A stretch of DNA of 64,000 nucleotides. Origin: Chloroflexota bacterium (lineage in GTDB: Bacteria > Chloroflexota > Anaerolineae > Promineifilales > Promineifilaceae). Shown piece by piece: positions 42,913-47,561 of the stretch; the stretch's first letter is position 1; every line of letters begins with the position of its first letter. The translations under genes were made by a program, and so were the position numbers. The notes below the pieces were generated by a model that was given only the letters and a program-made list of their open reading frames with translations, was not told where the DNA came from and did not search any database. The DNA is taken from assembly GCA_018004935.1 (NCBI GenBank), contig JAGNBF010000018.1:1-64000 (forward strand), in the 5' to 3' direction.

Positions 42913-43806
42913 TCAATGTAACCCTTTTTTCTTCCAATAACGCATAATGCCATCTACTGACATATATAAAGGGTTGGCGGCTACGTATCGGGTAAAGTCG
43001 GATTCAGAAATGCCGACTGCGGCCGCACGTTCCCAGTTCCATTGTTCATACAATGAAACCAGATTATCCCGGTCTACCCCATGGAGCATTTGATCGTGCA
43101 CAAAGAGCGCGGCCGCGTCCAGCAACTCACGAAACTCATCCAAATGGGTATGGACATCATCTACTGGCCCAGCATGGGTAGGATAAAGCCGTTGAAAATT
43201 GGCCCCCTTTAACCGGGCAAGCGTCTCCTGCCATACTTCCCAGTTAAATTCTGGGGGTGGGGCGGGCAAATCTCTCAAGGGACTCCCAGGCAGACAAATC
43301 CCTGCCGCATCACCGGTAAAAGCGACATCCTCTAGCTGATAGGTGTGATGATGATTCGCATGACCGGGAGTATCGAGGGCCGTAAAGGTCAAACCCGCCG
43401 CCTGAATTTTGTCTCCATCGTAGAGAGCGGTAACTTGTGTCGCGGGTGAGGCTAAAAAAGCACCCCATAATTCATCCATGCGGTCGCCATAAATGCGGGT
43501 GGCGCTGGCCAGCAATTTGGAAGGATCAATCAGATGGGGTGCGCCCAGGTGATGCACATAGATTTGTGTTCCTTGTTGGGCCCACCAGCCTGCGGCTCCG
43601 GCATGGTCCAGGTGTATGTGGGTTACAAGCAAATGTTTGATATCTTGCGGAACATAGCCAAACTCGGCTAACCGTGCGTGTAATGTTTTGAGCGTCGAGC
43701 CGGGACCTGTTTCAACCAGTACTGGCCCGCCTGGCCCCACCACCAGATAGGCCACGGTGACATTGGGTTTGCCTTGATAATGTAAGTCTAGGGCATGAAT
43801 CTGCAT
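42913..43806 (-). CDS. MBL-fold metallo-hydrolase
   Basis: A 297-residue hydrolase of the metallo-beta-lactamase fold. The metal motif HIHLDHAGAAGWW lies near residue 75 and a second His is in LDTPGHANHHHTY near 165. The metal-bridging Asp is in VAFTGDAAGI near 180, and a third His is in YPTHAGPVDDVHTHL near 230. A helical C-terminal domain follows. Members hydrolyse lactones, thioesters or phosphodiesters, and the substrate is not determined. The ATG at 43806 has GAGGTT before it and is preferred to an upstream in-frame start. Confidence 0.92.
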   Translation of the reverse strand: MQIHALDLHYQGKPNVTVAYLVVGPGGPVLVETGPGSTLKTLHARLAEFGYVPQDIKHLLVTHIHLDHAGAAGWWAQQGTQIYVHHLGAPHLIDPSKLLASATRIYGDRMDELWGAFLASPATQVTALYDGDKIQAAGLTFTALDTPGHANHHHTYQLEDVAFTGDAAGICLPGSPLRDLPAPPPEFNWEVWQETLARLKGANFQRLYPTHAGPVDDVHTHLDEFRELLDAAALFVHDQMLHGVDRDNLVSLYEQWNWERAAAVGISESDFTRYVAANPLYMSVDGIMRYWKKKGLH

Positions 43807-43934
43807 AACAACCTCATTGGAGGGTAGCACAAGAGCCAAAACATTAAATAGTTACCCGGTCTCTGGCGCTACGTCTATCGTTGCTAAAAAGTATCCCTGA
43901 AAATGGGTCAAACTTTCCTCCGCTAAGCCTGTTG

Positions 43935-43975: not shown

Positions 43976-44024
43976 CCCTCGAGAGGCTTAGTAGTTACGG
44001 TATATTAGTGTATTCGTTTATTCT

Positions 44025-45212
44025 TCACCAGTCGGACTTACTGAGTAAATACCAAATCTGACCTTGCCCCCTTTTACCGCGGCCGCGCCAATACACCTCT
44101 TCCCCTTTTTGTTTTGTCACAGCTTCGGCCCCCTGAGCAAAAAAACGTTTATGGCGTGGGCCGTTCCCCGCTGTCCCTTGTTGCCGCAGGTCTGCCAGCC
44201 GCCGATTAAGTCGTTTTTGGTGCCGTTTGGGTTGGGGCTGATGAGGCCCTGTGTAATCATTGGGAAGTTGCCAGGCCAGATAGGTCGTGTGGGCCTGCCC
44301 TTGCTCTCCATTGTAATCAGTAAAGGTGAACATACCCGACCCCCGTTGCCACGCGCACTCTTCTTGTGTTTCTGGGGTAGCGATTTCCCCCAGGGCGAAG
44401 TTAGTCTGCGGCCGCACACCGACCCGTTTTTCATAACTCCGTTGGGTTTGGTGGCTTACCCCTGAGAGGTGGCTCAGAGTCGCACGGGCAATAGGCTGAT
44501 GGGGATGGTTGCGGCCGCTGTGAAAGCTGGCATAAAAATGGGCCTTCACTTCTCCAATGGGCCGGGTGAGTGTCAGCAGGGGTAAAATGATGGGGTAGCC
44601 GGAGAGGTGTGTAAGACCAAGCGCGGCCGCGACCTTCACCACCGAGCGGAGCCATAGCCGGTCTCCTTGCTTTTGCCAAAATAGCCCTTCTCCCTGGCCT
44701 AACAAAATCCGTAATTGCCGCCAGCCACAAAGCCGCCATACCGAAGTCGCATCGCATAGAGATCGCCGTACCTGCGCCATCTCTAGCCAGCCACGGCCCG
44801 CTTCATCCAAATGTCGTAATAAAAACCAGATGCGGCTTTCGGCCACACGATTGTGGTTAAGAAGAGCCAATGCCAGATCTGGGGAGAGGGTGAGTGTTGC
44901 GGGAGGGGTAGAGGCAGGGGGAAACTCTGCGGCCGCGGTCCCCATAAAAAAGGCATTCTCAACAAACACCGGTTTGCCCGCCTGCGGCTGTTGCCCCAAT
45001 CGGGAAAGAGACTCACTGTGCCAACCCAGATGCGTTGGCCAGATCGTCATGGGTGGGCTTGTTTTTCCCAATTGATCCTTTATCGGCGACTCAACTGGTT
45101 CACGGTAAATGTGTACTTGTTGCCGTAACGCCAACAACTTCTCTTGAGCCGCCAATAACGCCTGCGATGGCTGTGTATCCACCTTGCACCACACCCGGCA
45201 AACACCATAACC
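44025..45212 (-). CDS. Putative DNA-binding protein, replication-initiator-like
   Basis: About 395 residues; the family is not recognised. The middle has ALALLNHNRVAESRIWFLLR, a winged-helix-like DEAGRGWLEMAQVRRSLCDA and GWRQLRILLGQGEGLFW. Then RATLSHLSGVSHQTQRSYEK, VGVRPQ looks like a second helix-turn-helix. The C-terminus is basic and Gln-rich. Two winged helices in a row, divergent from an origin-like intergenic region, are the layout of many plasmid Rep proteins; that reading is an inference. The start is uncertain: a TTG at 45245 and ATG at 45212 are possible, without a good ribosome site. It carries five GCGGCCGC words, so it is not a very recent arrival. Confidence 0.6.
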   Translation of the reverse strand, partial: GYGVCRVWCKVDTQPSQALLAAQEKLLALRQQVHIYREPVESPIKDQLGKTSPPMTIWPTHLGWHSESLSRLGQQPQAGKPVFVENAFFMGTAAAEFPPASTPPATLTLSPDLALALLNHNRVAESRIWFLLRHLDEAGRGWLEMAQVRRSLCDATSVWRLCGWRQLRILLGQGEGLFWQKQGDRLWLRSVVKVAAALGLTHLSGYPIILPLLTLTRPIGEVKAHFYASFHSGRNHPHQPIARATLSHLSGVSHQTQRSYEKRVGVRPQTNFALGEIATPETQEECAWQRGSGMFTFTDYNGEQGQAHTTYLAWQLPNDYTGPHQPQPKRHQKRLNRRLADLRQQGTAGNGPRHKRFFAQGAEAVTKQKGEEVYWRGRGKRGQGQIWYLLSKSDW

Positions 45213-45275
45213 CATAAGCCAAAGGAGTGAGGCAACATAAAACAAGCGTTACGCTGAGAACAGCCTACGCTTGCA

Positions 45276-45304
45276 TTGACACCGATCTGGCCGTGTGTTA
45301 TGCT
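45276..45304 (+). promoter_or_regulatory. Strong sigma-70-like promoter, divergent from the rep-like gene
   Basis: TTGACA (45276-45281) and TATGCT (45299-45304) have exactly 17 bases between them. The only thing it can transcribe before a terminator is a region of about 145 bases with no convincing gene. Confidence 0.7.
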
Positions 45305-45310
45305 TTTTGC

Positions 45311-45455
45311 AACTGTGAGGCTTCCGGGAGGAATGCAAAAATCCCCCTCCCCAAAGAAAGGGGCATACACTTTACCTTATTTGCAGACCGGTAGTGTGAT
45401 GGGAAGCTTTGTTTATACAAAGGCCGGGCGCGCGTACGCCTGGCCTTTTCGTTTC
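45311..45455 (+). ncRNA. Candidate small RNA between promoter and terminator
   Basis: The interval lies between a near-consensus promoter and an intrinsic terminator. The transcript could fold: TTTTTGCA (near 45304-45311) with TGCAAAAA (near 45333-45340), CCCCTCCCC with AGGGG, and the terminator stem. The only frame through it has 71 codons and no ribosome site. It lies antisense to any leader of the rep-like gene, as copy-number RNAs do in plasmids. It matches no known RNA that I can recall. Confidence 0.4.
45420..45450 (+). terminator. Intrinsic terminator
   Basis: AAGGCCGGGCG (45420-45430) pairs with CGCCTGGCCTT (45437-45447), one mismatch, followed by TTTTCGTTTCTT. Confidence 0.75.
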
Positions 45456-45490
45456 TTGGGCATGGTTCAGTTCAGCTTTATAAGCGGTTA

Positions 45491-45550
45491 AGTAATCGTC
45501 CCAAAATAGCCTGGGTGGCGCGGTCAAGAAACCGGCTACAACCAATCACT
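45491..45550. repeat. Dispersed element B, partial copy
   Basis: AATCGTCCCAAAATAGCCTG and GGTGGCGCGGTCAAGAAACC are followed by GGCTACAACC. It is more diverged than other copies. Confidence 0.75.
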
Positions 45551-45631
45551 AAATTATTTGCGCACGATTACAAAGTACTGTTTGCCGACGTTTGCACCAC
45601 GCCGTTTCTTGGGTATTCCCCGCTGAGGTAC

Positions 45632-45661
45632 ACAGTAAAAAGAAGAACTTCTTTTTACTGT
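45632..45661. repeat. 30-bp inverted repeat near the origin-like region
   Basis: ACAGTAAAAAGAAG (45632-45645), AA, then CTTCTTTTTACTGT (45648-45661). It could be a regulator site or the terminator of an opposing transcript. Confidence 0.75.
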
Positions 45662-45689
45662 CCGTTTATCTCATGGTGATGATATACCA

Positions 45690-45955
45690 GAAACCTGAAC
45701 CGTATTAACAGACATTTGTTGCTATCTATCCCCTAAACCTGACTGATAACAAGAACAAATGTATTAAAAACGCAATCAAGGCGATCCTAACATAATTGAT
45801 TGCCCTTGTCAATCAATCTATAGGCTATAGATTGGCGAAAACATAAGAGTTTATGCCAAATATCCACAAGCTATCCACAGGTAGTGGGTATTTGTCCACA
45901 GCCAGGGCAGGAGAAACAATATAGTTATCCCCAATACTGGACAGTTATCCCTGAA
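45690..45955. other. Candidate replication origin with phased DnaA-box-like sites
   Basis: Five near-matches to the DnaA box TTATNCACA lie in one orientation: ATATCCACA (45860), CTATCCACA (45871), TTGTCCACA (45892), TTATCCCCA (45925) and TTATCCCTG (45945). Start-to-start distances are 11, 21, 33 and 20 bases, close to whole helical turns. To the left is an AT-rich stretch (45690-45850) with inverted repeats ACATTTGTT/AACAAATGT and CAATCTATA-GGC-TATAGATTG (45814-45834). No dnaA, dnaN or rpmH gene is near, so a plasmid-type or secondary origin is more likely than a standard oriC. Confidence 0.55.
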
Positions 45956-46082
45956 TTTGTGAAAATGGGGGAAATTAGTTGCTCTTTCTCCTCTGGTTTG
46001 GTTATATCCAATAGTCGTTTACGCATAAGACCCTGGCTTTTACTGACAACCGGGTGGGAGAAATCACTTCAGGACACAGACA

Positions 46083-46961
46083 ATGATGGAAAATATAAAA
46101 CTCGAATTTTTTAGCAAAGCTGATTGGAGCCGTCTGGGGCTGGTTGTCCCCCCTTTTAGTATCGAAGCTGATCCTCGCTTCATGTACATTTCGGTAGATA
46201 CACGACGTGCCCTGTCAAAGGTGAGTTTCATGGTGGAGTCAGGGCAGGGGGCATCTATCATTGTCGGTGAAGTGGGCACAGGTAAAACAACGTTGGCCAC
46301 CTGGTTTCATAGCCGTTACCAACGTCGCCCGGACTTTGTGGCTGCCCGTGTGGATGAACCGCCTAAACGAAGTGGTTTGCTTCTGCTCCGCCGTATCGCC
46401 GCCGAATTGGGCATCCGCACCCGTCGGGCTACGGAAGATCAGTTGAATGAGTTTCGTGCCTTCCTCATCAAACAAAGTGAAAAGGGTATCATTCCCCTCA
46501 TTATTATTGACGAAGCCCATGAATTAAGTGCGGAGCAATTTGTGGAATTACGGCGTCTTTTGAACTTTCGGGATCCCGGCGGCCGCAAAGCTTATCAGCT
46601 TGTGCTCCTGGGTCGCCCAGAGCTGGATATTAACCTGCGTGAAGTCCCCGATTTTAATGACCGGGTAGCAACGCGTTCCTCTCTGGACCCACTTACCCCG
46701 GAAGATACCAAATCTTTAATTGAGTACCGCCTTTTGGCCGCGGGGCGAGATGTCAAACAACCACAACTATTCAATGATGATGCAGTACTCCCTATTTGGC
46801 GGGAAACGCGCGGTTATCCCCGGAGTATTTGCCTGTTGTGTCTGCATCTGTGCTTGCATTTGTTAGATCAGAATGCTCCCCAGGTAGATGAAGCGTTTGT
46901 GGCCTGGTTTCTGGAGAAAGAACATAGCTACCGGCAACTTTTGGGTGATAAGCGAGCTTAG
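46083..46961 (+). CDS. ExeA/TniB-like AAA ATPase
   Basis: A 292-residue ATPase. FSIEADPRFMYISVDTRRAL near the N-terminus is the usual ExeA/TniB opening. Walker A GEVGTGKTT is at 62-70 and Walker B IIIDEAHEL at 141-149. A sensor-1-like VLLGRPELDINL and FNDRVATRSSLDPLTPEDT follow, then an Arg-rich lid. Family members act in type II secretion (ExeA), Tn7-like transposition (TnsC/TniB) or plasmid maintenance. No transposase or secretin gene is near. It starts 130 bases after the DnaA-box-like cluster and is followed by a basic protein gene on the same strand. Confidence 0.9.
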   Translation: MMENIKLEFFSKADWSRLGLVVPPFSIEADPRFMYISVDTRRALSKVSFMVESGQGASIIVGEVGTGKTTLATWFHSRYQRRPDFVAARVDEPPKRSGLLLLRRIAAELGIRTRRATEDQLNEFRAFLIKQSEKGIIPLIIIDEAHELSAEQFVELRRLLNFRDPGGRKAYQLVLLGRPELDINLREVPDFNDRVATRSSLDPLTPEDTKSLIEYRLLAAGRDVKQPQLFNDDAVLPIWRETRGYPRSICLLCLHLCLHLLDQNAPQVDEAFVAWFLEKEHSYRQLLGDKRA

Positions 46962-47012
46962 GGACGCTTTCACCGATAGAACTGGGTTTTCCGGTTTCAG
47001 CGGGTTGACACT

Positions 47013-47561
47013 ATGAGTAAACAACCGCAACGAGAAGAAAGCACCCTAACGGCGTTGTTGCGTGAAAAACCCAAACGCGGCCGCCCCCGTCATGCTGTCA
47101 GTCGCCAGAGTGTGTATGTGGCGCTGACGGTAGAGCAAAAAGAACTGGTTAAACAATTAGCGGAAACTCTGAATGAGGGGTTAGACCGGTCTGATATACC
47201 GGATATGGCGGTGATGCTTTTGGCGGTGCGTTTAGAAGCCTTGCGCCGGGCAGTGTCTGATCGGGATCGAGAGATGCCGGAGGGGATTACGGTTCTAGAT
47301 TCTCTTTATTTGTTATGGGATGTGCCGTTGCCGTTGCCTTCTGAAGCGTCCTGGACATCTATTCGTCTTTCGCCACAACAGATTATTCAGTTGGGGCGAT
47401 CCCAGGGTTTGCTCCATGCTTTATTTAATGCGAATCGGAGTGAAGTGTTTAGTTTGGGGCTTGGTTTATTGAAGCTTTTGCTGGAGAGCGAAGCCTTGCC
47501 CTTGGCGGATGTTCACACCCTGAATGACTTTGAAACCAAAATGACGATGATTTATTTGTGA
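47013..47561 (+). CDS. Basic protein of unknown function, AT-hook-like start
   Basis: 182 residues. The N-terminus has EKPKRGRPRHAVSRQSVYVA, in which KRGRPRH resembles an AT-hook. A helical region, LTVEQKELVKQLAETLNEGL, and a hydrophobic C-terminal half with LGRSQGLLHALFNANRSEVF follow. A ribbon-helix-helix fold in the first 70 residues is possible. It starts 51 bases after the ATPase gene and is probably co-transcribed. A DNA-binding partner for the ATPase is a reasonable inference. No family recognised. Confidence 0.65.
   Translation: MSKQPQREESTLTALLREKPKRGRPRHAVSRQSVYVALTVEQKELVKQLAETLNEGLDRSDIPDMAVMLLAVRLEALRRAVSDRDREMPEGITVLDSLYLLWDVPLPLPSEASWTSIRLSPQQIIQLGRSQGLLHALFNANRSEVFSLGLGLLKLLLESEALPLADVHTLNDFETKMTMIYL

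Follow-up and report, generated by a model that had tools for sequence, protein, structure and literature searches.

Control of replication initiators by antisense RNA is well known. The F plasmid uses iterons. CopA was the subject of a 1992 paper. In that system it is the act of translating the leader that matters and not the leader product, as stated in the part of PMC5304414 that concerns it. The target loop of ColIb-P9 is 5'-rUUGGCG-3' (1998 paper, cited in PMC10724649), and U-turn loops were reported on either the sense or the antisense RNA in such systems (passage in PMC4485353). The section of PMC6090056 devoted to repABC replicons describes antisense control of their initiators, chromids included, with a ctRNA of ~50 nt located between repB and repC. 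Ktedonobacteria, another class of Chloroflexota, were described in the corresponding passage of PMC13289182 as having chromid-like contigs with no Rep initiator by Pfam. Neither a described antisense replication control in Chloroflexota nor a named initiator family for the replicons considered here was found in the openly licensed literature, Rfam, Pfam and plasmid and phage records.

The locus studied here lies in a stretch of 64,000 nucleotides that was analysed as a whole (the window). Judged by its conservation, the spot is a genuine gene for a folded RNA of 145 bases, conserved in one uncultured Chloroflexota family. Most likely this is a countertranscribed (cis-antisense) RNA limiting the synthesis of a plasmid-type replication initiator (Rep), and it probably sets the copying frequency of a plasmid or second chromosome. 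Cis-antisense (ctRNA) replication control RNAs are encoded opposite an initiator leader and have their own promoter, a stable fold and an intrinsic terminator; these features were found here, with rep as the putative initiator gene. The features of the locus are collected in Table 1.

Table 1. Coordinates of the features of the antisense RNA and rep locus in the window.
Feature	Position	Strand	Details
sRNA promoter TTGACA-N17-TATGCT	45276..45304	+	TTGACA 45276-45281, TATGCT 45299-45304, spacer 17, TG ahead of -10
Antisense RNA gene, ~145 nt	45311..45455	+	fold z -3.57; covariance-model match 87.6 bits
Basal stem P1, left arm	45317..45325	+	fold; 93.5% of P1 cells paired in relatives
Hairpin H1	45326..45347	+	loop contains complement of leader start codon; window fold and relatives
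Core CCCCCTCCCC	45343..45352	+	complement of rep-strand Shine-Dalgarno site GGGGAGGGGG; near-invariant columns in A1 and A2
Hairpin H2	45349..45363	+	window fold and relatives' alignments
Hairpin H3	45364..45401	+	loop UUUGCAG in window; UUGGCGG in most syntenic relatives
Basal stem P1, right arm	45402..45410	+	fold; relatives' alignment
Intrinsic terminator	45419..45448	+	12 pairs, 8 G-C; 97% of cells paired in relatives
Leader ORF, TTG start, 29 codons, TAA	45249..45338	-	opened by Shine-Dalgarno site opposite sRNA core; GGGGAGGGGG then TTG
rep-like gene	44025..45245	-	first possible start 45245; homology from 45167; likely start GTG 45182
Candidate rep promoter TTGACA-N17-TAGGAT, extended -10	45784..45812	-	10 of 12 match, equals sRNA promoter
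Palindrome AATCTATAGGCTATAGATT, candidate operator adjoining rep promoter	45815..45833	+	sole window match at <=2 mismatches, 0.01 expected
Metallo-beta-lactamase-fold gene	42913..43839	-	syntenic neighbour, downstream of rep
AAA_22 / TniB- and ExeA-like ATPase	46083..46961	+	syntenic neighbour
Small protein, no family assigned	47013..47561	+	syntenic neighbour

An earlier note, made from the letters of the window, had proposed that a sigma-70 promoter and a terminator at 45420-45450 frame a candidate 145-base RNA. The promoter is present with the spacer as described and a TG before its -10, a 12-bp terminator was found within a base or two of the proposed ends, and the plus-strand RNA of ~145 nt predicted between them is conserved in relatives. 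The promoter had been called the best sigma-70 match; it is top-scoring, but it is tied by a 10-of-12 minus-strand site (45812-45784). The 5' end of the RNA at 45311 is deduced from the position of the -10, and the stretch down to 45455 folds with -56 kcal/mol, more stably than its shuffles. Within the window only, the promoter and terminator signals are little better than chance: in region 44000-47000 the promoter-like sites number 5 (shuffles: 2.6, sd 1.7) and the terminator-like sites 9 (shuffles: 3.9, sd 2.1). The case for an RNA gene therefore rests on conservation instead. The absence of a ribosome site, also claimed, practically holds for the plus strand, where GGGAGG stands 1 base ahead of an ATG and the ORF from that ATG reads through the terminator, but not for the opposite strand, which carries GGGGAGGGGG and then TTG. 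No conserved short protein is found on the plus strand of the interval; the short ORF present there belongs to the minus strand and is the likely target of the RNA.

In the predicted fold three hairpins (H1, H2 and H3) radiate from a junction closed by the basal stem P1, and a linker and the terminator follow. The alignment A2 and the covariance model R1 were built from 22 RNA sequences, the more diverged ones being omitted at this stage and added later by the model. The 36 pairs of A2 hold in 89.9% of cells, and 17 of them show two-sided changes versus 6.8 in shuffled alignments (this count was reached by 0 of 500 shuffles). The extended alignment A6 comprises 72 model-aligned sequences (E up to 1e-5) from 73 sources and has a covariation score of 0.410 versus 0.151 shuffled and at most 0.106 slid; as the rows of A6 are related and had been fitted to this structure, these statistics overstate independence. 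The covariation analysis in relatives, suggested by the earlier note as a check, supports the fold, with compensatory changes at 33 of 36 pairs over the 72 sequences. Cells with G-U outnumber those with A-C by 58 to 15 in P1 and by 44 to 5 in the terminator, which favours the plus strand as the RNA. In H1 the relation is reversed (7 to 47), as expected if the rep mRNA folds at H1. The H3 loop contains TTGGCG in 28 of the 72 sequences; other loops, e.g. CTGCCAA, place UUGGCAG on the target strand. A UUGGCGGC-like site, which might be a pseudoknot partner of the H3 loop, is seen close to the start of rep in a minority of the 25 loci compared and is absent in the window. The motif YUNR in the H3 loop (38 of 72 sequences) was discounted as too common by chance, and a kissing pair UGCAAA/UUUGCA inside the window RNA is not claimed because it is specific to the window's own loops.

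Matches to the covariance model were found in 28 of 59 genomes of relatives, all 28 within the window's own family. An order-wide search gave 41 of 56 genomes, namely 41 of the 52 family members and none of the 4 genomes from the rest of the order, and across the phylum (301 genomes) strong scores were confined to two family members. Weak matches outside the family (five genomes of the 301, E 2.4e-4 to 9.5e-4) were taken as chance. The window itself has no Rfam match at gathering score, ctRNA families included, and a permissive threshold yields sub-threshold matches only, the best of them on the terminator.

The RNA is closely linked to rep. Of the 71 matches in the 59-genome search, 64 are located a short way upstream of rep matches, in every case on the other strand, and 7 have no rep nearby. 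Among the first 30 rep loci, 27 have an opposite-strand TTGACA-N17-TAnnnT followed by the same folded sequence and terminator; two of the three loci without this arrangement have a contig end within about 100 nt. A second genome collection, which overlaps the 59-genome set (many contigs seem identical, judging from their length), contains 57 rep loci, all from Chloroflexota MAGs including Promineifilum and Ardenticatenaceae. A minus-strand RNA match is present in 46 of these loci, upstream of rep in 46 of 46 at a median distance of ~158 nt, and 8 of the 11 loci without it begin at a contig end. At three loci (L201, L208, L212) rep and its upstream sequence are present with no match to the RNA model. 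About 80 rep matches have a linked, structure-supported RNA. Tandem diverged copies of the antisense RNA stand upstream of one rep gene at eight loci (L020, L088, L090, L094, L145, L174, L193, L197). The suggestion that transcription would run antisense to the leader of the rep-like gene agrees well with the relatives, which keep promoter, fold and terminator on that strand and opposite the same leader.

The near-invariant CCCCCUCCCC core of the RNA reads GGGGAGGGGG on the rep strand. A start codon (ATG, GTG or TTG) is found 2-5 nt past this G-run in 43 of 44 rep-proximal copies versus 30% in shuffles of the following bases; of 6 distal tandem copies, only 3 have one. Conservation of the Shine-Dalgarno site and start codon opposite the core suggests that selection preserves the complement of a working ribosome site in the core of the RNA. 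In five loci (L092, L097, L099, L102, L143) the start codon is in the rep frame, so the rep start lies inside the complement of the RNA and the overlap is certain for any transcript serving that start. In the other rep-proximal loci the start codon opens a short leader ORF of variable sequence. In 13 of 44 loci, including the window, the leader stop falls between -40 and +30 nt relative to the point where the rep ORF opens, and only at these is coupling of leader to rep evident by position. In the window the TAA is 3 nt ahead of the first possible rep start, although homology points to a start of rep near 45182. Many other loci have ~100 nt between leader stop and rep.

Of 45 anchored loci, 21 have a promoter TTGACA-N17-TAGACT or its near variant on the rep strand, on the far side of the RNA gene; no such promoter was found in the other 24, mostly non-syntenic. 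A rep transcript starting at this conserved promoter, which on the rep strand is upstream of the RNA gene, would include the full complement of the RNA. A palindrome, AATCTATAnnnTATAGATT, often adjoins the rep promoter at the same place in relatives and has a single occurrence in the window. The 70-base stretch 45489-45560 between the RNA terminator and the rep promoter belongs to a dispersed repeat with about 40 genome matches (40 scored).

A different palindrome is iterated throughout the window: GCGGCCGC has 112 copies in 1-64000 versus 1.7 expected. An iterated palindrome is also seen at loci L306-L315 and others. The relative G451 has 449 copies of ACGGCCGT in 200 kb versus 4.7 expected, thus the outer bases of the palindrome differ by species. 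The element resembles cyanobacterial HIP1.

The simplest reading of the mechanism, as far as it can be deduced from the sequences, is a translation block. Both strands would be transcribed, and the RNA would pair with the nascent rep leader, probably first at the H3 loop. The duplex would mask the ribosome-binding site of rep itself in five loci, while in most loci, the window included, it would mask the site of the short leader ORF whose translation rep presumably needs. The dosage of the RNA is expected to track gene copy number, so that rep output would drop as copies rise. The layout of copy-number control RNAs, to which the earlier note had likened the locus, is supported insofar as the RNA stands opposite the rep leader in relatives; the copy-number role itself is deduced from this layout.

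The same antisense RNA might instead act by attenuation of the pT181/pIP501 type, where pairing would promote a rep-leader hairpin CCCCUUnnUUGGGG(AGGGGG) followed by U's and transcription would end before rep. Terminator-like sites were indeed found by the scan on the minus strand at 45363-45343, and at least 5 T occur in the 7 bases past the G-run in 25 of 44 rep-proximal copies. However, the T-run is absent in the remaining 19 of 44, whereas all but one of the 44 copies retain the start codon, and in five loci the start codon after the G-run is that of rep itself, which favours translation control. We consider attenuation unlikely.

It is still less probable that we deal with a structured RNA having some other job, such as a trans-acting sRNA or a binder of Rep or of the AAA ATPase, which happens to be beside rep by chance. 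With four stems and a terminator the RNA is more elaborately folded than one would expect of an antisense RNA, tandem copies stand beside several rep genes and 7 of 71 matches stand alone; yet the most conserved bases fall on the Shine-Dalgarno site and start codon of the opposite transcript, and the linkage to rep is near complete and always on the opposite strand. Conservation might also act on the DNA, as origin hairpins or protein sites, with the promoter and terminator being chance look-alikes. The locus may be a replication origin, and inverted repeats are typical of origins, but the promoter spacing and -10, the polarity of the T-tail and the excess of G-U over A-C in P1 and the terminator mark a plus-strand transcript, which makes this explanation very improbable. 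A cis-antisense RNA blocking translation remains our preferred reading.

Relatives of rep were found in 31 of the 59 searched genomes, the most distant one being a weak partial match in G045. The protein has no Pfam family match, only an unrelated sub-threshold match in NCBIfam and nothing credible by sequence in the PDB. Searches of plasmid, phage and viral-contig collections gave no rep either. The predicted model of Rep (pLDDT 84.1) weakly resembles the mini-F initiator RepE: its best PDB fold match is RepE54, itself weak (Foldseek E 0.021, model residues ~93-313), and VIA against RepE gives Z ~6 over 154-170 residues, inside the range of chance arrangements. Of the families listed by VIA, RepE alone spans both domains; the other rows cover one winged helix only. 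Of the 94 fetched loci with rep, 16 have Pfam ParA- or ParB-like genes in the neighbourhood, a rough count as many loci are short and three fetches overlap. The assignment of Rep as a putative initiator is based on the RepE54 fold match and these neighbours. Replacement of DnaA by Rep was ruled out, as DnaA is present in 59 of 59 genomes.

Two types of rep setting were observed. In the syntenic type, to which the window belongs, rep occurs with an AAA ATPase and a small protein (33 of 94 loci, overlapping fetches included), and the usual gene order is small protein - AAA ATPase - RNA - rep - metallo-beta-lactamase. In the other type the neighbouring genes vary, and a single genome can have as many as 14 matches. 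The ATPase gene adjoins the rep promoter, and its nearest relatives are the ATPases of ExeA/TniB type and of phage DNA transposition. A role in loading a helicase or in regulating the replicon is conceivable. Four one-mismatch DnaA-box-like sites lie within ~75 bases between the ATPase and the rep promoter of the window (45860-45960; 0.74 expected). A DnaA-dependent origin as a family trait was dropped, since the other 22 syntenic-type loci have 0-2 boxes in the corresponding region versus shuffled means of 0.28-1.14.

In G023, the best-assembled relative, the syntenic locus shares a contig of 1,004,044 bp (G023:C2; loci L229 and L236) with dnaA and a second ParB; another contig, of 3,989,163 bp, has ribosomal L2 and the strong ParB. 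Besides dnaA, at 670 kb, the 1.0-Mb contig carries a tRNA group; both are absent from the 4.0-Mb contig with L2, tRNA genes being sought in sampled stretches only. The GC skew of G023:C2 is negative at ~450-870 kb and switches at ~875 kb, beside rep at 873 kb; the coarse cumulative minimum is at 935 kb and not at 873 kb because the skew is near zero beyond 875 kb. The 603-kb contig G007:C12 has the same pattern of skew signs. The expectation of a negative left and a positive right flank was set after these two contigs and before five new ones, in which the right flanks were positive over the first 20 kb in 5 of 5 and the left flanks negative in 2 of 3 stretches. Exceptions among the contigs examined earlier are the negative right flanks of G010, G027 and G013 and the positive left flank of G009. 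The largest skew jump of the window contig is at 37.5 kb, ~8 kb off the rep locus, and in G018 the jump at the locus ranks 37 of 45 positions. All these genomes are related, and local gene direction also produces skew. No terminal overlap indicating circularity was found in G023:C2, G007:C12 or 16 smaller contig records.

The frequent position of one syntenic rep type at GC-skew switches suggests that it is a chromid origin, which is plausible but not established. A further, quite tentative reading, about which we have more doubt than confidence, is that the family (which includes Promineifilum) keeps a second chromosome of ~0.6-1 Mb with its origin at the rep locus, and that a plasmid-type antisense RNA sets the copy number of this core-gene replicon. 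The same cassette would then also occur on as many as a dozen further replicons or integrated elements in one genome, having diversified through tandem duplications of the antisense gene and shifts of the UUGGC loop between antisense and target strands. If this is true, a replicon with core genes, which in one genome are dnaA and tRNA genes, has its copies under a plasmid-type antisense RNA. Rep and its linked RNA offer a handle on the copying, separation and compatibility of such replicons in one cell, and the core complementary to a Shine-Dalgarno site makes a sharp and readily testable prediction.

With respect to the described systems, RepE of mini-F, one of the two-winged-helix initiators, provides the best PDB fold match to the Rep model, though with a weak score and no sequence match. 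The locus resembles the RepE/ctRNA control of repABC plasmids and chromids in that an antisense RNA would limit the initiator, the replicons may include chromids and ParA/ParB-type genes are near. In contrast to the repABC ctRNA, the RNA described here is ~145 nt long and divergent from rep, the initiator belongs to another family and there is no repABC operon. With Inc RNA (RNAI) of ColIb-P9 and the I-complex plasmids it shares the UUGGCG loop motif and a leader ORF; however, syntenic loci bear UUGGCG on the antisense strand and not on the target, and elsewhere the antisense strand often has CUGCCAA, hence UUGGCAG on the target. In CopA/CopT-tap-repA of plasmid R1 (IncFII), as here, an antisense RNA lies opposite an initiator leader with a short ORF; the start of translation of this ORF seems to be the target, and its product is not conserved. 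Unlike R1 CopA, the present RNA has a four-stem fold and a C5UC4 core placed over the Shine-Dalgarno site itself, and five loci target the start of rep directly with no leader. By its sequence it is a new family in this well-known class, unusual in the Shine-Dalgarno-complementary core and in the tandem copies.
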